Assembly (NCBI GenBank): GCA_946540005.1
Contig: CAMNHY010000004.1
Location: 1 to 60,547, forward strand
DNA: 60,547 nt
Reading direction: 5' to 3'
DNA from: an uncultured Clostridium sp.
Lineage (GTDB): Bacteria; Bacillota_I; Bacilli_A; Acholeplasmatales; Anaeroplasmataceae
Shown: piece by piece, positions 507-55,186 of the stretch
Position numbering within the stretch: the first letter of the stretch is position 1
Layout: the number at the start of each line of letters is the position of its first letter
Made by a program: the position numbers and the translations under genes
Notes under the pieces: generated by a model
The model's input: the letters and a program-made list of their open reading frames with translations, nothing else
Told to the model about the DNA's origin: nothing
Database searches by the model: none

Positions 507-1544
507 CTATTTTATAAGATCAATGTTTACACCAACATTATCTACAACGCTTCCTATAACATATGATTTTCTTCCATAATCAGATAATATTTGTTGGGCT
601 TTTTTAACATCATCTGCAGGAAGTGCTAAGACCATACCAATACCCATATTGTAAATATTAAACATTTCTCTGTGGTTTATATTTCCATATTTTTCTAAAA
701 AATCAAAAATAGGAAGGATTGGCCAAGAACCTTCAATAACATGAATTCCTTGTCCTTCCTTTAAAATACGTGGAATGTTTTCATCAAAACCTCCACCTGT
801 AATATGTGCAACTCCGTGTACATCTAATCTTTTAATTACTTCTAGAACTTCTTTTACATAAATATTTGTAGGAGTTAATAAAACTTCTCCTAATGTCTTA
901 TATGAATCTAATTCATTATATATTTTATGTAAATCAAGTTTTGCATCTTTAATTATTTTTCTAACTAAAGAAAAGCCATTAGAATGCACACCACTTGACT
1001 CAATACCAAGTAATACGTCTCCTACATTAACACGAGTACCATCTATTAATTTTTCTTTAGATACTACACCTGTTGTAAAACCTGCAATATCATATTCACC
1101 ATTTTCATACATACCAGGCATCTCAGCTGTTTCGCCACCAATAAGTGCACAATTAGCTTGCTTACAACCATTAGCAATACCTGATACAATAGCCTCTACT
1201 TTTTCAGGATTAGTTTTTCCTTGAGCAATATAATCTAAGAAAAATAAAGGTTCTGCACCTTGTGCTAAAACATCATTAACACACATCGCTACCGCATCAA
1301 TACCTATAGTATCATGCTTATCCATTTCAAATGCTATTTTAAGTTTAGTACCTACACCATCTGTTCCTGATACTAAAATAGGATCCTTTATATCTAATTT
1401 TGTTAAATCAAACATTCCACCAAATGAGCCAATATTTCCCATTGTTCCAATACGTTCAGTAGATTTAACATGCTTTTTTATTCTTCTTACAACATCATAA
1501 CCGGCTTCTAAACTTACGCCGGCATTTTCATAATCGATTGCCAT
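507..1544 (-). CDS. purM: Phosphoribosylformylglycinamidine cyclo-ligase (AIR synthetase)
   Basis: Closes the imidazole ring of FGAM to give AIR using ATP. The 345-residue length is normal. It opens with [19 protein letters not shown], contains the ATP-binding [13 protein letters not shown] segment near residue 60, and further on [11 protein letters not shown] and [13 protein letters not shown], all hallmarks of the PurM/AIRS fold. A GAGG-type ribosome site lies 6 to 8 bases before the ATG. It sits 12 bases after purF and 4 bases before purN, in one transcription unit with the rest of the pur operon. Nothing is missing or unusual. Confidence 0.97.
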
Positions 1545-7415: not shown

Positions 7416-8510
7416 CTATTCCTCAATTTTTAATTTCTTTTTGTAACTTGAAAATAATTCTTCATTCATATTTCTATAGGTAATATGTCCTAATTTTCTA
7501 TTTATTCTTTTTTCTTTTTTATGATACATATGAATATATCCATTAGGTATTTCAAATAATTTATCTAAATTTATTAAATCTTTACCTAATATATTTTTCA
7601 TGAGTGTCTCACTCTTTAGTTTCGGTATTTCAAGTTTTTCTTCTTTTAAAAATTTAATTAATTCTTTGAATTGATTTGTTTGACATCCCTCAATTGTATA
7701 ATGGCCACTATTATGAGGTCTTGGTGCCATTTCATTAAAATAAAATTTATCCCCTTTAACAAAGTATTCAATTGTAAGAATTCCATAATAATTAGCATTA
7801 ATCATAAAATTTATACTTTGTTTAATCATTTCTTCTTCTAATTTTTTATCAATTTTTGCTGGTACTATGCTTAAATCTAGTATTCCATTTTTATGAATAT
7901 TTCTACTAATAGGAAAATGTATAATTTGATCTTTAGATCTAATCATAATAATCGAACATTCAAAATCAAAATCTATTTTTTCTTCTATTATTCCTAAATT
8001 ATTTTCTAAATATGGTTTTACTTTTTCAATATCAGATTCACAATTTAAAATTACTTGTCCATGTCCATCATATCCATCTCTTCTTGTTTTATATATACAA
8101 GGAAAACCAATAATAGAAATAGCTTTTTTTAAATCTAAAATGGATGAGCAATCATAAAATTTACAAGTTTTAAGACCATTTTTTAGCGCATTCATTTTTT
8201 CTCTTAATCTATCTTGTGAATCTAAAAGAGGTTTAATACCTTGCGCAATATTATATTTATCATCTAATTTTGATAGGATTTTACCATCTACATTTTCAAA
8301 TTCATAAGATAATACTTCACTTACTTTAGCTAATTTATCTAAATCAGCTAATTTATTAAAAGATCCTTCAATAAAATAATCACAGACTTTTGAACAAGGA
8401 CAATCTTTTGATGGGTCAAGGACTGCACATGTATACCCTAATTTATGTGCTTCTTCAACCATCATCATTCCTAATTGACCGCCACCAATTATTCCAATAT
8501 TATAATTCAC
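7416..8510 (-). CDS. purK: 5-(carboxyamino)imidazole ribonucleotide synthase
   Basis: ATP-grasp enzyme that carboxylates AIR to N5-CAIR. It opens with [20 protein letters not shown], the PurK signature, and has the ATP-grasp elements [13 protein letters not shown] and [15 protein letters not shown]. The start codon is GTG at 8510, inside the last codons of purE, an 11-base overlap typical of coupled purEK pairs. The protein is 364 residues, the normal length. The presence of both PurE and PurK means the two-step N5-CAIR route is used. Confidence 0.96.
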
Positions 8511-8970
8511 TTTCTAATACTTCCTTTGTTTGAAAATATCTAAAGTCTTCTAATTTCTTTCTAATTGATTCATCACTTATAGCTAATATTGAAATAGCAT
8601 AAAGCGCAGCATTTTTACTACCATTAATAGCCATAGTACCAACAGGAACTCCTCCTGGCATTTGAACAATTGATAGAAGTGAATCTAATCCATTTAAGGC
8701 CCTAGATTTAACAGGAACTCCTATAACAGGAATAGTTGTGTTTGCTGCAACCATACCCGGTAAATGAGCAGCCCCTCCTGCTCCTGCAATAATAATTTTT
8801 ATTCCCTTATCCTTAGCACTTTTAGAGTATGATTGTAATAATTCTGGTGTTCTATGAGCTGAAACTATTCTTTTCTCATACTCGATACCAAATTCATCAA
8901 GTACATCACACGCATCTTTCATTACTTCATAATCGCTTTTAGATCCCATAATAATTCCGACTTGTATCAT
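8500..8970 (-). CDS. purE: N5-carboxyaminoimidazole ribonucleotide mutase
   Basis: Rearranges N5-CAIR to CAIR. I place the start at the ATG at 8970 ([17 protein letters not shown]), preceded by a perfect GGAGG ribosome site at 8975-8980. An in-frame upstream ATG at 9033 would run through the terminator hairpin and has no ribosome site. The 156 residues carry GSKSD, the SAHRTPE catalytic loop, [11 protein letters not shown] and the substrate loop [12 protein letters not shown]. It is the first gene of the pur operon, immediately behind the riboswitch-controlled terminator. Confidence 0.96.
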
Positions 8971-9022: not shown

Positions 9023-9164
9023 TGCGTAGCCAAAAATCATTGTATATAATACAGCTTTGGATATAGATTAAATTTTTTAATACATTATTTCTCATATTTA
9101 CATACCATCCACTATAAAATGAATGATAAGCAACTTTTTAGAAATGAAAAAATCATTTCTAGAA

Positions 9165-9239
9165 ATATCTCATAGTCTCTAAATTTACGGTTTAGAGGTA
9201 GAAACTTGCTTACCACATTTAAGCCATTATACAAGATAT
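9165..9239 (-). promoter_or_regulatory. Guanine-class purine riboswitch of the pur operon
   Basis: The minus strand shows all purine aptamer parts. P1 is ATATCT/AGATAT. P2 is GCTTA/TAAGC with a 7-base loop ending GTGG. J2/3 reads AAGTTTCTACC. P3 has the loop ACCGTAA. J3/1 is GACTATG, whose C (position 74 in the xpt numbering) selects guanine or hypoxanthine over adenine. About 140 nt separate the aptamer from the terminator before purE. The P1 3' arm can alternatively pair with ATATC near 9060-9064, which suggests the usual OFF logic: ligand stabilises P1, frees the terminator and shuts off pur expression. Confidence 0.95.
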
Positions 9240-9322
9240 AGCTATTAAATTATTACAATATTATTCTAACATAATAAATTTATAGTGAGTAGAAATTTTT
9301 TATAGAAAACGGTTTCTAAATG

Positions 9323-22556: not shown

Positions 22557-23840
22557 TTGAAAACAGCTATTTTAGTTTGTGTAGATAAAGATATAAACGA
22601 TGCAAATGACAGTTTAGATGAACTTGCTTCTTTAATTGAAACATTAGGGATTAAGGAAGTTCAAAGAGTAGTTCAAAAAGCTTTAAAACCAAATATTAAA
22701 ACTTATCTTGGTAGTGGTAAAATAGATGAGCTTAAACAAATGGAAACAGTTGAACCTGTTGATTATATCGTATTTGATGACGAATTAACTCCTGCTCAAA
22801 TGTTTAATGTAGATGAAATATTTAATGCTTCTGTAATTGATAGAGCTTATGTAATTCTTGATATATTTAGAAAAAGAGCTACAACAACAGAAGCTCAATT
22901 AGAAATAAAGATTGCTAATCTAAAATACTTATTACCACGTATAAAGACATTCCATGAAGGATTTGATAGACAAAGTGGTAAAATCGGTTCTAAAGGTAGT
23001 GGTGAAACACAACTTGAACTTGATCAACGTTTTTTAGCTAATCAAATATATGACAATGAACAAAAATTAAAAGAAGTTTTATCTAGAAAGAAACATGAAG
23101 TTAATAAAAGAAAGAACAGTAATTTAAAAACTATAGCCCTAGTTGGTTATACAAATGCAGGTAAATCTTCTACATTAAACGCCTTGTTAAATTATTTAAA
23201 TAAGGTTGAATATAAAAATAATTTAATTAATAAAAGCGTTGAAGCTGAAGATAAATTGTTTAAAACATTAACTACATCTGTTAGAAAATTAACTTATAAA
23301 AATATTCCTTTCTTATTATCTGATACAATAGGATTTATTAATAAAATTCCAAATGAACTTCTATCTTCATTTATGACTACATTAGAAGAAGCTAAAAATG
23401 CTGATTTGATAATCGTTGTCGCAGATTTAACAGATAAAAAGCTTAATATGCAATTAGAAACTACTATAAGAACGCTTGAAAAAATATTAGGTGATAAAAA
23501 ACCTGAAATTATTTTCTTATTCAATAAGATTGACGAGTTTAATGATATACCAGATATTAGATTTGAAGTATCAGGATATAAATCACTTGGTTATTCAAAT
23601 AAAGATGAAAAATATCAATATAAATTATTAGAATTAATAAAAGAATTCTTATTACAGGATTATGAAATAATTGATCTAAATATTCCCTATCAAGATCAAA
23701 AATTAATTCATAAATTAGAAACTACAACTTCTATCATTTCTAAAACATATTTTGATGACTATATTCTTTATAAAGTATACTGTCCTAAATCATATACAAA
23801 AGAATATTCTATATATCGTGCAATTGATATGGTAATGTAA
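22557..23840 (+). CDS. hflX: GTPase HflX, ribosome splitting and rescue factor
   Basis: Ribosome-associated GTPase that splits stalled or stressed 70S particles. The N-terminal HflX domain ends in FDRQSGKIGSKGSGETQLE, followed by a coiled segment and a G domain: G1 LVGYTNAGKSSTLNAL, G3 LSDTIGFINKIP, G4 FNKIDEF. I choose TTG at 22557 because GAGGTG lies 6 bases upstream; the GTG at 22548 is inside that site. The G domain carries an insertion (YKNNLINKSVEAEDK) before switch I. 427 residues, normal length. Confidence 0.94.
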   Translation: MKTAILVCVDKDINDANDSLDELASLIETLGIKEVQRVVQKALKPNIKTYLGSGKIDELKQMETVEPVDYIVFDDELTPAQMFNVDEIFNASVIDRAYVILDIFRKRATTTEAQLEIKIANLKYLLPRIKTFHEGFDRQSGKIGSKGSGETQLELDQRFLANQIYDNEQKLKEVLSRKKHEVNKRKNSNLKTIALVGYTNAGKSSTLNALLNYLNKVEYKNNLINKSVEAEDKLFKTLTTSVRKLTYKNIPFLLSDTIGFINKIPNELLSSFMTTLEEAKNADLIIVVADLTDKKLNMQLETTIRTLEKILGDKKPEIIFLFNKIDEFNDIPDIRFEVSGYKSLGYSNKDEKYQYKLLELIKEFLLQDYEIIDLNIPYQDQKLIHKLETTTSIISKTYFDDYILYKVYCPKSYTKEYSIYRAIDMVM

Positions 23841-23915: not shown

Positions 23916-23943
23916 TTGACTTTCAAAAATAAAAGTGTATAAT
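23916..23943 (+). promoter_or_regulatory. Promoter driving the orphan guanine riboswitch
   Basis: TTGACT (23916-23921), 16 bp spacer, TATAAT (23938-23943). The predicted start, about 23950, leaves a few bases before the aptamer. Confidence 0.8.
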
Positions 23944-23960
23944 TGATAAATGTAGTTCGA

Positions 23961-24031
23961 TGTATCATATATATTAGGAAATTGGTCCTAATGTTTCTAC
24001 CCTTGAACCGTAATTTAAGGACTATGGTACA
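23961..24031 (+). promoter_or_regulatory. Guanine-class purine riboswitch with no downstream gene
   Basis: P1 is TGTATC/GGTACA. P2 is TTAGG/CCTAA with a loop containing TTGG. J2/3 reads TGTTTCTACC. P3 is CTT/AAG with the loop ACCGTAA. J3/1 is GACTATG with the guanine-selecting C. Loop GG and CC can kiss as usual. The 3' arm of P1 is also the 5' arm of the hairpin at 24027-24055. No reading frame follows on this strand before tilS at 26526, more than 2 kb away and behind opposing genes and terminators. Confidence 0.9.
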
Positions 24032-24061
24032 AAAAACTCTATTTGTTTTTTGTACTTTTAT
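24027..24061 (+). terminator. Riboswitch expression-platform hairpin
   Basis: GTACAAAAAAC pairs with GTTTTTTGTAC (11 bp, 7-base loop), then TTTTATTT. Its first four bases are shared with the aptamer P1, so aptamer and hairpin compete. Confidence 0.75.
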
Positions 24062-24066
24062 TTATA

Positions 24067-24092
24067 GACCACTTCGGTGGTCTTTTATTTTG
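24067..24092 (+). terminator. Strong intrinsic terminator after the orphan riboswitch
   Basis: GACCAC-TTCG-GTGGTC, a 6 bp stem with a UUCG tetraloop, then TTTTATTTT. It would end any transcript that passes the first hairpin. Confidence 0.9.
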
Positions 24093-24093
24093 C

Positions 24094-24126
24094 CAAAAAA
24101 AGCTATCTAAATTAATAGATAGCTTT
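24094..24126 (-). terminator. Terminator of the membrane protein-dus-maf unit
   Basis: AAAGCTATCTA and TAGATAGCTTT pair (11 bp, 6-base loop) with seven T after it on the minus strand; the stem touches the stop codon of the membrane protein gene. Confidence 0.88.
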
Positions 24127-24785
24127 TAAATATAATCATTATTAAATATCATATTTATAACTGATAAAATTATTACAATAATTGAAAACGCAAATAATGG
24201 TGAATAAAAAGTTAATTTTATTCCAACTACTATTATTACAACAGAATAATACACAGCCAATAAGAAATGTGATAATTTAAAATATTTACTAGGCATTTTT
24301 AATGCGTCTAATATAATTATAGGTAAATATACTGAAAAAGCTGGTATTAAATATATAGTTTGATCAGCCAAATTATTAATATATAGCGCTATTAATGTAG
24401 TAATGATTAAACTCATACCTATAATTGATGTGATCATTTCTAATCTTTTTTTAAGATAATCTTCTGCATATGTTGAATAATAAATTATCGCTACACATCC
24501 CGCTGCATAACTCATTAAACCACCTAAGGTTGCGATAGCATATCTATCAACTGTCTTTGGTGTAAAAGTTAGCGAAAATAAACTTGTTATAGATATTGCA
24601 AGGGTTAAAATAGCTACTACAAATGGTTCATATTTATTATATTTTTTAATAAATATAAATTCTAAAGCTAACAAACAAAATGCAATATTAATTATTCCAT
24701 AAAATGGTGTAGAAGCACCTGCTATTAAAAATATAGCCCCAACTATAGCTAAAATGATTGATATAAATAACGAAACTTTTCTCAT
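24126..24785 (-). CDS. Unrecognised multi-pass membrane protein
   Basis: 219 residues with about seven hydrophobic segments spread evenly through the chain and very short loops; no soluble domain and no motif I recognise. The start ATG at 24785 is preceded by AAGGAAG; an in-frame ATG at 24827 lacks a ribosome site. It is probably cotranscribed with dus and maf, which end 73 bases upstream. Function unknown. Confidence 0.7.
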   Translation of the reverse strand: MRKVSLFISIILAIVGAIFLIAGASTPFYGIINIAFCLLALEFIFIKKYNKYEPFVVAILTLAISITSLFSLTFTPKTVDRYAIATLGGLMSYAAGCVAIIYYSTYAEDYLKKRLEMITSIIGMSLIITTLIALYINNLADQTIYLIPAFSVYLPIIILDALKMPSKYFKLSHFLLAVYYSVVIIVVGIKLTFYSPLFAFSIIVIILSVINMIFNNDYI

Positions 24786-24857
24786 GTTCTTCTTCCTTGA
24801 TAATTTAATTATACAAGAAAATAACACTTTTGAATAATATTTTTAACGATTTAATAA

Positions 24858-26525: not shown

Positions 26526-27833
26526 ATGAATAAGTTTGAATTAAAAGTTAAAAATTATATTTCAGATAATAATTTAATAGAAAAGAATAAAAAAATTATT
26601 TTAGCATTTTCTTATGGAATTGATTCAAGAAGTTTATTAAATGTTTTGTTTAACCTAAATTATGAAATTATTGTTGCACATGTTAATCATAAAGTCAGAA
26701 AAGAATCTGATATTGAGGAAGATGAAACAATTAAACTTTGTAAGGAATTAAATATTAAATATTATATTAAACATTTAATTCCACAAGAAGAAAATTTCGA
26801 AGACTATGCTAGAAGAGAGAGATATAAGTTCTTTGAAGAAGTTGCAAGAATAGAAAATACAAATATTTTAGCAACTGCACATCATAAAGATGATAATTTA
26901 GAAACTATATTATTAAAATTAATGACTGGTTCTAATTTATATGGATATGCTGGCATTCATAATAGCGTTAAAAGAGGAAATTTAACTATTATAAGACCAT
27001 TTTTATCAGTATCTAAAGATGAGATAAAAGAATATCAAAAAGAATTAGGATTTAAATATTTTGAAGATTATACCAATTCATTAAATATTCATAAGAGAAA
27101 TTATATTCGCAATAATATTATTCCTCTTCTTAAATGTGATAATCTTGACATATTAAAAAAAGCCATTGATTATTCAAATATTTTAAATGATTCATTTAAT
27201 TATATTAGAAATAATTCTATTTCTTATTTAAATAAATGGAATAATCAAATCCTAGTTTCTGAGTATATTAGTTTAGAAAATGCGCTAAGGCATGATATAA
27301 TTTGCTTACTGCTTGAAGAAAATAAAATTAATAGAAGTTATAAATTAATTTTATCAATTGATAAAGCATTATTAAAAAATAAAGCGCAATTTGAAATTAA
27401 ACTTGAAGGAGATTTTTATTTATTTAAACGATATAATAAAGCTTATATATCTAAAAAAATAGATATTGAATATAATAGTATATTTTTAATGCCAAATGAA
27501 AAAAAATCATTTGGAAAATATAATTTTTATTTTTCAACCAAAGCTCCTTCTTCTAATGAAAATTACATTAAACTATGTTATAATAGCATAGAATTCCCAG
27601 TAGAAATTAGAAACAGAAAAGACGGGGATAAAATTACTTTATCTTATGGAACCAAAAAGGTTAAAGACCTTATGATTGACAAAAAAATTGATAAAGAAAT
27701 TAGAAAAAATATACCAATAGTTTTAATTGGTGGAAAGATAATATGGATATGTGGTATTGCAAAATCTAGTCTAATAAAAGATGGATTAGATAATGGTGAT
27801 ATCTATTTAATCCAAGAGGTGAATTATGGATAA
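26526..27833 (+). CDS. tilS: tRNA(Ile)-lysidine synthetase
   Basis: Attaches lysine to C34 of tRNA-Ile(CAU) with ATP so that it reads AUA. 435 residues. The N-terminal PP-loop ATPase domain runs to about residue 200 and carries HVNHKVR, TAHHKDDNLET and the FEDYTNS motif. The C-terminal substrate domain ends with FPVEIRNRKDGDKI and KVKDLMIDKKI. The PP-loop itself reads SYGIDS near residue 30 in place of SGGxDS; see findings. The gene is followed by hpt with an 8-base overlap, the classic tilS-hpt-ftsH order. Confidence 0.92.
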   Translation: MNKFELKVKNYISDNNLIEKNKKIILAFSYGIDSRSLLNVLFNLNYEIIVAHVNHKVRKESDIEEDETIKLCKELNIKYYIKHLIPQEENFEDYARRERYKFFEEVARIENTNILATAHHKDDNLETILLKLMTGSNLYGYAGIHNSVKRGNLTIIRPFLSVSKDEIKEYQKELGFKYFEDYTNSLNIHKRNYIRNNIIPLLKCDNLDILKKAIDYSNILNDSFNYIRNNSISYLNKWNNQILVSEYISLENALRHDIICLLLEENKINRSYKLILSIDKALLKNKAQFEIKLEGDFYLFKRYNKAYISKKIDIEYNSIFLMPNEKKSFGKYNFYFSTKAPSSNENYIKLCYNSIEFPVEIRNRKDGDKITLSYGTKKVKDLMIDKKIDKEIRKNIPIVLIGGKIIWICGIAKSSLIKDGLDNGDIYLIQEVNYG

Positions 27834-38678: not shown

Positions 38679-39965
38679 CTATTTAATTGGTTTTAATACT
38701 TTCTTACCACCCATATATGGTTGAAGTGCTTGTGGAACATTAATTGAACCATCTTCATTATAATTATTTTCAATAACAGCAATTAAACCACGTGGTGATG
38801 CTACTACAGTATTATTTAAAGTGTGGCATAAGTGTGTACCATCTTGATCTTTATAACGTATACCAAGTCTTCTTGCTTGTGCATCACCTAGTGTTGAACA
38901 AGAACCTACTTCAAAATACTTTTGTTGTCTTGGTGACCAAGCTTCAACATCGCATGATTTAACCTTTAAATCAGCTAAATCACCTGTACAGCATTCAAGT
39001 TGACGAACAGGAACATCTAAGCTTCTGAAATAATCTACAGTTAATTTCCATAACTTATTGTACCAAGTCATAGAATCCTCTGGCTTACAAATTACAATCA
39101 TTTCCTCTTTTTCAAATTGGTGTACACGATATACTCCACGCTCTTCAATACCATGAGCACCAACTTCCTTACGGAAACATGGTGAATATGATGTAAGTGT
39201 TAAAGGTAATTGTTGATCTTTAATGATTTGACCTTTAAATCTACCGATCATAGAGTGTTCAGAAGTACCGATTAAATATAAATCTTCTCCTTCAATCTTA
39301 TACATCATGTTTTCCATTTCAGCAAATGACATAACACCATTTACAACATCACCATGAATCATGAATGGAGGAATAACATATGTGAATCCATTATCACACA
39401 TATAATCACGTGCATAAGCTAACATTGCTGAATGAAGTCTTGCAATATCACCTACTAAATAATAGAATCCATTACCTGATGTACGAGCTGATGCATCTTT
39501 ATCAAGACCATCAAAACGTGCCATAATATCAGCATGGAATGGTACTTCATAAGGAGGAACAACTGGTTCACCAAAACGTTGTACTTCAACATTGAATGAA
39601 TCATCTTTACCAACAGGAACTGATGGGTCAACAATATTAGGAATTACATACATTTTCTTTAAAAATTCTTCATTTAATGATGGTAATTTAGCATCTAATT
39701 CATCAATCTTATTAGCATATTCACCAACAGATTCTTTAACCTTTTGTGCTTCATCTTTCTTACCTTCACGCATTAATTTACCAATTTCACCTGAAGCTTT
39801 ATTCTTTTGTGCCTTTAAACCTTCAACTTCAGTTTTGATAGCTCTAATTTGTCTATCTAATTCAATAACTTCATCAACTAAAGGTAATTTTTCATCTTGG
39901 AATTTTTTCTTAATGTTTTCCTTAACAATTTCAGGATTTTCTCTTACAAATTTAATATCTAGCAT
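38679..39965 (-). CDS. serS: Seryl-tRNA synthetase
   Basis: Charges tRNA-Ser. 428 residues. The N-terminal coiled-coil arm (about 30-100) binds the long variable arm of tRNA-Ser, and the class II core has TSPCFRKEVGAHG-type motif 2 (YSPCFRKEVGAHGIEERGVYR) and the C-terminal NNTVVASPRGLIAVIENNY motif 3. AGGAG precedes the ATG. Transcription is controlled by the serine T-box just upstream. Confidence 0.97.
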   Translation of the reverse strand: MLDIKFVRENPEIVKENIKKKFQDEKLPLVDEVIELDRQIRAIKTEVEGLKAQKNKASGEIGKLMREGKKDEAQKVKESVGEYANKIDELDAKLPSLNEEFLKKMYVIPNIVDPSVPVGKDDSFNVEVQRFGEPVVPPYEVPFHADIMARFDGLDKDASARTSGNGFYYLVGDIARLHSAMLAYARDYMCDNGFTYVIPPFMIHGDVVNGVMSFAEMENMMYKIEGEDLYLIGTSEHSMIGRFKGQIIKDQQLPLTLTSYSPCFRKEVGAHGIEERGVYRVHQFEKEEMIVICKPEDSMTWYNKLWKLTVDYFRSLDVPVRQLECCTGDLADLKVKSCDVEAWSPRQQKYFEVGSCSTLGDAQARRLGIRYKDQDGTHLCHTLNNTVVASPRGLIAVIENNYNEDGSINVPQALQPYMGGKKVLKPIK

Positions 39966-39996: not shown

Positions 39997-40209
39997 AAAA
40001 AAGTCCCTAAGACTTTTTTAAATCTTAAGGACGAATTATCGCGGTGCCACCTTAATTCTGAATAAATCAGCTCTCTTTTTCTGTAACGTAGAAATTACGA
40101 AAAATCTCCAAAGTAGATTCATTATAATCTTGTTTAACTATTTTCACCACACATAGTCTCTCTACAAAACTCCAATTATAATTACTTGTCTTTTTCATCA
40201 ATTTTTAAC
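39997..40209 (-). promoter_or_regulatory. T-box leader of serS
   Basis: The minus strand carries the T-box sequence AAGGTGGCACCGCG (40040-40053). Its bulge UGGC matches acceptor GCCA with discriminator G73, as in tRNA-Ser. A Ser codon UCU stands in a likely specifier loop at 40115-40117. Terminator stem GTCCTTAAGA/TCTTAGGGAC plus six T lies at 39997-40032, and its 5' arm overlaps the antiterminator partner. Uncharged tRNA-Ser should turn serS on. Confidence 0.93.
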
Positions 40210-52355: not shown

Positions 52356-52382
52356 AAAGTATTGCAGATTCTACAATACTTT
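52356..52382 (-). terminator. Terminator after the c-di-GMP-controlled gene pair
   Basis: AAAGTATTG and CAATACTTT pair (9 bp, 9-base loop) followed by TTCTTTT on the minus strand; the stem touches the stop codon at 52381. Confidence 0.82.
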
Positions 52383-54348
52383 AATTAGTTAATTCATTTA
52401 TACTATCTTTTTTAATAGGGTTACCCATAGGTATTAATTCAATACCATCACCTTTATAATAATAATATACTTGATTGCCATTTTGAATTGATCTATACAC
52501 ATATAAATATACTTCACTTACAGAACCATATTTTAATGTAAATCCTACTTTAGATAATACAAATCCCTCATCACTAGAAACTTCTTTATATCCAGAAATT
52601 GTATCAACAGATTCATAAGTAAAATCAATATCTACTATTGAACCAATATTTGATGTAGATGTACCTTCTGTACCTAAATCAACATATAGGAAGTAACAAC
52701 CGTTATCACCATTACCTTTAGTTATTATAAATTCATAACCTTTGTTAATATCATCTTTCGTTACTTCATATTCATAATAATAGAATCTATTTTTCTTAAG
52801 TCCTCCACTACCATCCGCATCAAGTAATGTTTCTGTAGTTGTACTTTCAAATCCAGTGCTAAAGTTACCAGGTATTCTTCTTTTTATTCGTTTAAAATTA
52901 AATGATCTATTTGTGTTATCTGTATTATATACAACAAATTTAATTGTACCAGGTTCAACAGGCGCAACCCAAATTGTTCTTGTAGGAACAATTATAGTAC
53001 CTTGATATCCTGAAACTATACCATCTTCTACCGCAAGAACATTGTTTAAATCTGCAGTTTCGTTTAAACGAGCACCATAAATATATTCGCTAAAATTATC
53101 TTTTAAATATTTTACTACATCATCTGTAGGATAATTATGTGTAACACCGTTATAATCTGTATAAGGTAATGTTGCATCATTATTATCATTAATAGGATAA
53201 TAGAACTTGTCAAAATTAAAAGATGAACTACTTTTTTGATACATTTTAGTAGATGCACCAACGAAATATCCAATGTTATTATTACCAGCTTTTTGAGTTT
53301 TTGCAGTTTCAATAACTTTAGAATTTGAACCATCATATTTATTAATTGTAACTGATGAATTAGTTGGGGTTATTTCATCCATTGATACAGACTTAATTGG
53401 ATATGCACTACCAGCTAATACACCTCTTGAGCCTATTTTATCAAATAATTTTTTCATATCAAGTGTACCACCATATCCAAATTCTCCACCAGTTGGTCTC
53501 TTTTGCCAATTTATACCAGTAGTATCTGAATCATAATCTCCAACTAAACTATATAAGGATAAATATTCATATTTCTTTTCTTGACCATTTATATCAACGT
53601 TTACTGGATTTACATTTTTAGATATATCAAAATGTGAATTTGCAACACCTATTTTTGATAAATCATTGTCTGCATATCCACAAATAAATCCAACCAAAGT
53701 ATCTTTTAGTACTTCAATTCTTTCATTTGCGATTGTAAAATTAGTTATAGAAGTATCTAATTTCTTTTGATATGTCTTTGAACCAATATAACCAAAAAGT
53801 CCCATATATTTTGTTACTATAGAACCGTTTAATATAGTTTCTTCATGAGCGTCAAGAACAAATTTTGAAGGGGTAATATAATTTGAATTAGTAAAATCTG
53901 TTGATATAAATAAATTATCAATTTTATATCCCGCTCCGTCAAAATTTCCAACAAAAGGATGTTCATCAATTCCAATAGTAGGAATTGGTGAAACAACACC
54001 ATCATTTTCTAATGTCTTCATATCAACATTTGCGCCTAATTTAAAATAAAATGGTTGAATACCATCTTCTGATAAATCAGAATCAACATTCTCATCATAA
54101 TATCCTAAATCTTGAAGCCACGCAAGATTATATAAATGTCTGGCTGATGTAATAATATATGGATCATCTTTTGTTCCTTCGCCTGACTCATAATACTTTC
54201 CCATTGATGACAATTTTATATCATTAACATCAGTTCTTATACCTGCATATCCAACATACCAAGCATATGTTCTTGTAATAACTAAAACTGATAAAATTAT
54301 AATTGATATAAAAGAAAATATAAGACGTATTTTATATTTATTTTTCAT
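52381..54348 (-). CDS. Exported surface protein with GLUG-like adhesion segment
   Basis: 655 residues. Basic start and one hydrophobic helix (KNKYKIRLIFSFISIIILSV, to about 25) followed by TRTYAWYVGYAG, the AWY-type context seen after signal segments of SipW-processed matrix proteins. Residues 60-150 read GTKDDPYIITSARHLYNLAW and FVGNFDGAGYKIDNLFIS, the GLUG-type pattern of surface adhesins. The rest is Thr, Ser and Asp rich without membrane anchors or LPXTG. It follows a smaller exported protein by 12 bases, behind a c-di-GMP-I riboswitch, so a role in attachment or matrix is likely. Confidence 0.75.
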   Translation of the reverse strand: MKNKYKIRLIFSFISIIILSVLVITRTYAWYVGYAGIRTDVNDIKLSSMGKYYESGEGTKDDPYIITSARHLYNLAWLQDLGYYDENVDSDLSEDGIQPFYFKLGANVDMKTLENDGVVSPIPTIGIDEHPFVGNFDGAGYKIDNLFISTDFTNSNYITPSKFVLDAHEETILNGSIVTKYMGLFGYIGSKTYQKKLDTSITNFTIANERIEVLKDTLVGFICGYADNDLSKIGVANSHFDISKNVNPVNVDINGQEKKYEYLSLYSLVGDYDSDTTGINWQKRPTGGEFGYGGTLDMKKLFDKIGSRGVLAGSAYPIKSVSMDEITPTNSSVTINKYDGSNSKVIETAKTQKAGNNNIGYFVGASTKMYQKSSSSFNFDKFYYPINDNNDATLPYTDYNGVTHNYPTDDVVKYLKDNFSEYIYGARLNETADLNNVLAVEDGIVSGYQGTIIVPTRTIWVAPVEPGTIKFVVYNTDNTNRSFNFKRIKRRIPGNFSTGFESTTTETLLDADGSGGLKKNRFYYYEYEVTKDDINKGYEFIITKGNGDNGCYFLYVDLGTEGTSTSNIGSIVDIDFTYESVDTISGYKEVSSDEGFVLSKVGFTLKYGSVSEVYLYVYRSIQNGNQVYYYYKGDGIELIPMGNPIKKDSINELTN

Positions 54349-54360
54349 AATTCACCAAAT

Positions 54361-55062
54361 TTAAATCATTCTAAATTCTAAGTCTTCACGGAAGAATATA
54401 TCACTATCTCCACCTGAAGTTCCTAAATTATCACTATAAATCTTTTGAATATTATCTGTATTATAATCAAATAATAAATATATACTTACTATAGAGCCTG
54501 GTAAAACTTCATAATCATTAATAAGATCAATTGTTTGAATACCTTCACCATAAGAGATATATTTATATTCAGATCCATCTTTAAAATTAGTTGTTGTATA
54601 ATATGTTTCACCATTATAATCAATCTTTTGAAGATAATAGAATTTTGCAACATTAGATAAATAATTTAGATAAATAGTCTTACCATCTTTATCTACAGAT
54701 GTTGTAATAAATGATGATCTTTCTTTAATTGTATTAGATAATTGAATAGAAAAACTATCACCATTAACTTCACAAGTCAATTCATATACAACCTTATTGT
54801 AACCTAATTCATTGTATTGAATTTCACTTATATCTTTTAAATTATTAAGATTTTGGCCAAGAGTATAGACACCATTATATTCAGTTGGAGAAGCAATATA
54901 TCTTTGTAAAAAACCGCCTACAACATTATTTTTAGAACTACTAACACTAATACCATCTGCAATAGATGTAGTAGTTAATGAAAACCATGCGAAAACAGCT
55001 GTAATAGACGACAAAAAAATCATTATAAGGGAGCTTATAATTTTTAGCAGTTTTTTATTCAT
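54361..55062 (-). CDS. Small exported protein, SipW-type signal segment
   Basis: 233 residues. The N-terminus NKKLLKIISSLIMIFLSSI then TAVFAWFSLTTTS is a basic-hydrophobic signal ending in an AWF motif, like TasA/CalY-family matrix proteins, which also begin their mature part with a Phe/Trp-rich strand. The mature part is predicted to be mainly beta with VLPGSIVSIYLLFDYN near the C-terminus; no sorting motif. AAGGAGATG precedes the ATG. First gene after the c-di-GMP switch; no sipW is in the window. Confidence 0.72.
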   Translation of the reverse strand: MNKKLLKIISSLIMIFLSSITAVFAWFSLTTTSIADGISVSSSKNNVVGGFLQRYIASPTEYNGVYTLGQNLNNLKDISEIQYNELGYNKVVYELTCEVNGDSFSIQLSNTIKERSSFITTSVDKDGKTIYLNYLSNVAKFYYLQKIDYNGETYYTTTNFKDGSEYKYISYGEGIQTIDLINDYEVLPGSIVSIYLLFDYNTDNIQKIYSDNLGTSGGDSDIFFREDLEFRMI

Positions 55063-55086: not shown

Positions 55087-55116
55087 AAAAAAGCCAATTA
55101 CTTTATGCAACTGGCT
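55087..55116 (-). terminator. Terminator of the c-di-GMP riboswitch
   Basis: AGCCAGTT and AATTGGCT pair with a loop that contains the aptamer's P1 3' arm, then TTTTTTGATTTTG on the minus strand. It shares bases with the aptamer's P3 and P1. Confidence 0.85.
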
Positions 55117-55186
55117 GTCATATCTAACTTAGACCCTATAGCTTTGCGTCACAACTTTTCAGTTGCTTTGCCAAAAAAGCACAAAA
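55101..55186 (-). promoter_or_regulatory. c-di-GMP-I (GEMM) riboswitch
   Basis: The minus strand shows P1 TTTTGTGC/GCATAAAG, then GGCAAA, a P2 stem CAACT-GAAA-AGTTG with its GAAA tetraloop, the invariant GACGCAAAGC, and P3 with a receptor TCTAAG facing TATGA, then AGCC. The G before CAAA corresponds to the position that contacts c-di-GMP (A there marks the cGAMP variant). The terminator 5' arm overlaps P3, and its loop holds P1's 3' arm, so ligand binding should prevent termination and switch the genes on. Confidence 0.9.

Follow-up and report, generated by a model that had tools for sequence, protein, structure and literature searches.

A conserved free-standing guanine-aptamer RNA in Anaeroplasmataceae and its possible action in trans

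The window, a stretch of 60,547 nucleotides from an uncultured member of the Anaeroplasmataceae, carries a purine aptamer that stands in front of no gene, and gene-less counterparts occur in two further genera of the family. Judged by its sequence, this orphan is a conserved free-standing guanine-aptamer RNA, whose aptamer is of a known kind and whose stand-alone, self-competing form is new. We consider the chances slightly better than even that it represents a small guanine-responsive RNA gene, present in at least three Anaeroplasmataceae genera, in which the ligand would free the 5′ end for action in trans.

Layout of the orphan RNA

Covariance-model searches with Rfam identify two purine riboswitches in the window, one on the minus strand (9153–9254) preceding a purE-K-L-C-F-M operon, and the orphan on the plus strand (23945–24044). 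The orphan matches the guanine aptamer RF00167 with 72.3 bits (gathering score 37, E 7e-11), and the pocket nucleotides of the guanine class (U47, U51 and C74) are intact and invariant in the three genera, which bears out an earlier note on this DNA in its claim of a complete guanine-class aptamer. One further purine match in the window's genome, the third, is weak (32.8 bits, under the cut-off); it falls within a protein-coding frame and is attributed to chance. The window also contains a c-di-GMP-I riboswitch (55103–55182, minus strand, 64.7 bits) upstream of the genes for two proteins that look secreted (54361–55062 and 52381–54348), and a T-box leader (40024–40207, minus strand) that precedes a seryl-tRNA synthetase-like gene (38679–39965).

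The element begins with a promoter, TTGACT-16-TATAAT (23916–23943, plus strand, as are all parts of the element), which has 11 of 12 consensus bases and is the best among 33 promoter-like sites in 3.3 kb, in agreement with the strong promoter of its own noted earlier. The RNA is predicted to start 7 bases past the −10 box (5′ end at 23950–23958), and its leader contains GUAGUUC (23952–23958), a putative competitor strand of aptamer helix P1 (anti-P1) and possible seed. It is followed by the P1 5′ strand GUAUCAUA (23962–23969), which includes UAUCAUAUA, the hairpin P2/L2 (23973–23992), the ligand pocket J2/3 GUUUCUAC (23993–24000), the hairpin P3/L3 (24001–24020), and GGACUAUGGUAC (24019–24030), which comprises J3/1 and the P1 3′ strand; within the latter, GGACUAUG is also the pairing partner of the 5′ GUAGUUC. 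L2 and L3 both fall one base short of the consensus length. The cytosine at 24022 (position 74) is the specificity base and places the aptamer in the guanine/hypoxanthine rather than the adenine class; by sequence, then, the element is a guanine-class aptamer with guanine or hypoxanthine as its predicted ligand.

Two hairpins lie downstream, as the earlier note had described. The first, T1 (24026–24056), has 12 bp with 3 GC and is followed by T-rich sequence; it shares GUAC (24027–24030) with P1, again as noted before. The second, T2 (24066–24090), consists of a 7-bp UUCG hairpin (24066–24083) and a T tract, and marks the predicted 3′ end of an RNA of about 108–140 nt. Two terminator-like hairpins are thus found near the orphan versus 0.7 expected, and the predicted fold exceeds those of shuffled versions of the RNA in stability (z −3.7 to −4.5).

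The upstream neighbour is hflX (22557–23840, plus strand; Pfam GTP-bdg_N/GTP-bdg_M/MMR_HSR1). Downstream lies a convergent gene for a membrane protein of no known family (24126–24827, minus strand), which is not conserved in relatives and whose terminator, as read from the sequence (24098–24127, minus strand), makes the two transcripts abut with no overlap. The next plus-strand gene, tilS, begins at 26526, beyond convergent minus-strand genes, so that the absence of a controlled gene also holds. A 55-codon TTG frame (23943–24110) traverses the structured RNA and is not credible as a gene.

Conservation in three genera

In 55 Anaeroplasmataceae genomes, a search with the purine model identifies 44 purine aptamers, 41 of which precede genes for purine synthesis, guaB, formate-tetrahydrofolate ligase, permeases, lipoproteins and a deaminase (names by sequence reading). 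The remaining three are gene-less, i.e., the window's and those of the uncultured Anaeroplasmataceae assemblies G030 (L034) and G054 (L043); all three orphan genomes are metagenome-assembled drafts. No plus-strand gene under possible cis control lies behind the orphan in any of them. The G054 aptamer scores 43.2 bits under the 2′-deoxyguanosine model in clan competition (cut-off 51) and 46.3 bits in another search, above the purine cut-off. As in the window, hflX is the immediate upstream neighbour of the G030 orphan, and its far side is flanked there by cdaA (named from sequence); the G054 orphan is located elsewhere. Among roughly 30 hflX loci, only those of G030 and the window's genome (G000) are followed by the orphan, the hflX of G001 being cut by a contig end.

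The RNA gene is far better conserved than its surroundings. From the −35 box to the last terminator, the G000 and G030 copies are 77% identical (z 18.8), whereas their flanks align no better than shuffled DNA (z 0.8 upstream and 0.6 downstream); HflX is only 45% identical between the same two genomes. Both relatives keep the −35 (TTGACA/TTTACA) and −10 (TATAAT) boxes. The three RNAs were aligned free of gaps, loops and linkers being padded by hand with N. Of the 21 aptamer pairs, 10 differ at both bases, an outcome seen in 0 of 500 shuffles, and 98% of the cells are paired, leaving a single unpaired one; the covarying helices are P2 and P3. No variation is seen in the pocket sequence, in GUAGUUC or in UAUCAUAUA, and the hairpins past the aptamer do vary, so that the conserved part consists of the 5′ half and the aptamer. 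A conserved RNA gene with covarying helices between random flanks argues for selection on an RNA and against decay, and it is well supported at sequence level that the orphan is under selection in three genera and its flanks are not.

This comparison bears directly on the possibility that the element is a conventional riboswitch acting in cis, with a gene that was lost through an assembly error or is small and unrecognised. Such a reading would fit the 41 aptamers of the family that do precede a gene; it is nevertheless extremely unlikely, since the independent assemblies G030 and G054 are equally gene-less and no reading frame common to the three RNAs is evident. The same gene-less arrangement behind hflX in G030 indicates that no gene was lost here by assembly error, which the earlier note had left as a way to refute its reading. 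The draft assembly of the window's genome (0.93 Mb, completeness 75.7%) lacks guaB, a gene preceded by a riboswitch in congeners, and also guaA and gpsA, the neighbours of guaB in a congener. A guaB-leader remnant was therefore considered and rejected: with gpsA and guaA equally missing, the guaB locus, riboswitch included, has probably escaped assembly and lies elsewhere rather than being lost.

A convergent gene follows the orphan in all three genomes, which could point to antisense or transcription-collision control of that gene. We regard this as very unlikely, because the three convergent genes are unrelated (one of no Pfam family, one YgjV and one TMEM164), 54 relatives contain no homologue of the one in the window, and in each genome a terminator belonging to the convergent gene separates the two transcripts. 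With no same-strand gene to control, and convergent genes that are unrelated and separated by terminators, what remains for the orphan would be a role in trans or that of a sponge.

In covariance-model searches of 160 genomes of the order and 395 of the class, every further match that was read has a gene, save for leaders that a contig end truncates and a single leader parted from its permease by an insertion element. An exact-pattern scan of 85,000 species recovers only the two known relatives, one Clostridium NCS2-permease leader and chance matches, among which we count a match in a viral contig.

Probable descent from permease leaders

When a covariance model of the orphans is run over the 160 genomes of the order, the three orphans rank first (100.9, 97.9 and 77.6 bits), partly by construction as the model was built from them, and the next matches are mainly leaders of NCS2-type permeases in the sister family (60–77 bits). 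Pairwise alignment with one of these, L113, gives z 11–15 for the G000 and G030 orphans and 4 for that of G054. The NCS2/AzgA-type guanine leaders (L113–L138) share with the orphans the promoter spacing, a hairpin after P1 and a GACCAC..GTGGTC terminator, which T2 of the window RNA resembles, and their 5′ GTA-TTCAATGTATCGTATA is similar to the GTAGTTCGATGTATCATATA of the orphans. These likenesses suggest that the ancestor of the orphan RNA was probably an NCS2 purine permease leader with a guanine riboswitch.

In L113–L138 the permease lies directly downstream, whereas the orphans have no gene, and the leaders carry GTAGAAACC, an element that is complementary to the aptamer's GTTTCTAC and looks like an antiterminator, and which sets them apart from the orphan. 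The sister-family leaders begin with GTATTCAATGTATCGTATA, at the place taken by GTAGTTCGATGTATCATATA in the orphans. In these leaders the 5′ GTATTC has its pairing partner in a GAATAC immediately ahead of the ribosome site of the permease, and a partner-like hexamer is present in 21 of 25 permease leaders, while neither this pairing nor the GAATAC partner is found in the three orphans. The permease leader L136 shows a compensatory GTCTTC/GAAGAC pair. Where the permease leaders have GUAUUC, the orphans have in common the derived GUAGUUC. Their history was likely one in which the permease was lost and the 5′ arm was re-used to pair inside the aptamer.

Descent from a leader raises the question of whether the orphan is simply a relic, i.e., a permease leader that outlived its permease and is still transcribed and terminated without function. 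The clear resemblance to sister-family leaders noted above, the lack of any NCS2 permease in the window's assembly, and a recent case in G078, where an insertion element has come between an NCS2 permease and its guanine riboswitch leader (L219, 5577–7579), are all in keeping with this idea. It is however unlikely in view of the conservation of the RNA over three genera, with covarying helices between random flanks, of the common derived GUAGUUC that permease leaders lack, and of the permease with its own riboswitch that G030 and G054 retain besides the orphan. The earlier suggestion of a remnant of a lost transport gene hence stands as to origin, the nearest relatives being NCS2-permease leaders, and is probably wrong as to function, because the RNA is selected in three genera while its flanks are random.

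The sister family also presents an unusual partner of guanine riboswitches, which in many of its genomes precede an inorganic pyrophosphatase gene (MNIWHDI..., Pfam PF00719; loci L141–L143, L146, L153, L157, L159, L165, L169 and similar).

A candidate switch and comparison with known systems

The sequence GUAGUUC is complementary to GGACUAU, i.e., J3/1 including C74 and the beginning of the P1 3′ strand, and by pairing with this ligand-binding strand it would compete with P1. The minimum-energy folds of all three orphan RNAs contain the GUAGUUC/GGACUAU helix, and in the absence of ligand the anti-P1 state is computed to be more stable than P1 by 4.4, 4.6 and 0.8 kcal/mol, gaps that, on these models, would be within reach of the ligand bonus. 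Such complementarity is uncommon: at least seven contiguous pairs between the 5′ leader and J3/1–P1 are found in 4 of 131 distinct purine leaders, namely the three orphans and one purL leader, so that a comparable 5′ complement occurs in just 1 of the 128 other leaders examined. No covariation of the anti-P1 helix is observed among the three orphans, both of its strands being nearly invariant. A GTAG-type 5′ strand with 6–7 pairs to J3/1–P1 is present in the purL leader L226, from another family (at about position 30–75), and in a permease leader of G054 (L042), which indicates that the anti-P1 arrangement occurs in cis too.

A small RNA that would act in trans is the best reading of the sequences. 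In the absence of guanine, GUAGUUC would pair with GGACUAU and hold the pocket base C74; upon guanine binding, P1 would form, the pocket would close and the 5′ GUAGUUC would become single-stranded, possibly to pair with other transcripts or to bind a factor. Alternatively, the conserved UAUCAUAUA may be the actor in the ligand-free form. The fuller scenario, in which a riboswitch left its gene and became an independent small RNA, with guanine toggling the seed GUAGUUC between self-paired and free forms and so directly setting the RNA's activity in trans, possibly on the de novo purine operon, is one we entertain more tentatively, at somewhat short of an even chance.

We also looked for pairing with other messages, as suggested in the earlier note. 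A duplex-energy search against 777 gene starts of the window's genome ranks purE first (−16.3 kcal/mol) and purM third, and both starts (purE 8500–8970 and purM 507–1544, minus strand), which are predicted to pair with the 5′ end of the orphan, lie in the guanine-controlled purine operon. However, the energies tail off smoothly, purE falls to rank 125 of 416 in the part of the G030 genes searched, and no target conserved between the window's genome and that part of G030 was found at gene starts. The purE pairing would moreover require both strands of the switch to be free, and no exact complement to the orphan RNA of 15 bases or more exists elsewhere in the window's genome. We therefore treat the predicted purE/purM pairing as a lead only.

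The proposal that ligand favours reading to the second terminator, yielding an RNA of two lengths, is weakened by the comparison. The hairpin sharing GUAC is restricted to the window copy, as G030 lacks the 5′ GUAC arm and G054 the hairpin, and in the window RNA a four-pair P1 with full T1 (−25.4 kcal/mol) is predicted to be more stable than a full P1 with truncated T1 (−23.3 kcal/mol). In the window's genome ligand may also move the 3′ end from T1 to T2, and such control of RNA length is possible, thermodynamically doubtful on these energies, and not a conserved feature.

Free-standing riboswitch RNAs are very rare. A review terms trans-acting riboswitches 'rare examples' (PMC7266159), and the literature examples that we found use cobalamin or SAM aptamers. 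EutX/Rli55, a small RNA built on an adenosylcobalamin riboswitch, stands free, has a promoter of its own and can take two lengths (PMC5821096); the orphan could likewise be a sponge, binding a protein or guanine itself rather than an mRNA, with the ligand altering the binding element. The layout is indeed EutX-like, with a constitutive-type promoter, an aptamer, a ligand-adjacent hairpin and a second hairpin (PMC5821096); to this explanation we nonetheless assign a small probability, given that the post-aptamer hairpins are not conserved in the three RNAs and the conserved part is the 5′ half with the aptamer.

A conserved guanine version of such a free-standing RNA would show how a cis switch can turn into a metabolite-gated small RNA, with presumed ancestral-type permease leaders and the derived orphan both available for comparison, and with GUAGUUC versus P1 as a concrete, testable switch. 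With the guanine aptamers of RF00167 the orphan has in common the three-way junction, the pocket GUUUCUAC, C74 and the GG/CC loop-loop contact, and it differs from them in controlling no gene, in its 5′ anti-P1 GUAGUUC, and in the shorter L2 and L3. Like EutX/Rli55 it appears from its sequence to be a free-standing aptamer RNA with its own promoter, although its aptamer is of the purine and not the adenosylcobalamin class, and it shows no sign of an EutV-binding dual hairpin. Finally, the SAM riboswitches SreA and SreB act in trans, SreA also controlling an operon in cis (PMC8079631); pairing in trans by a terminated riboswitch RNA is what we propose for the orphan as well, which, unlike SreA, has no operon to control in cis.
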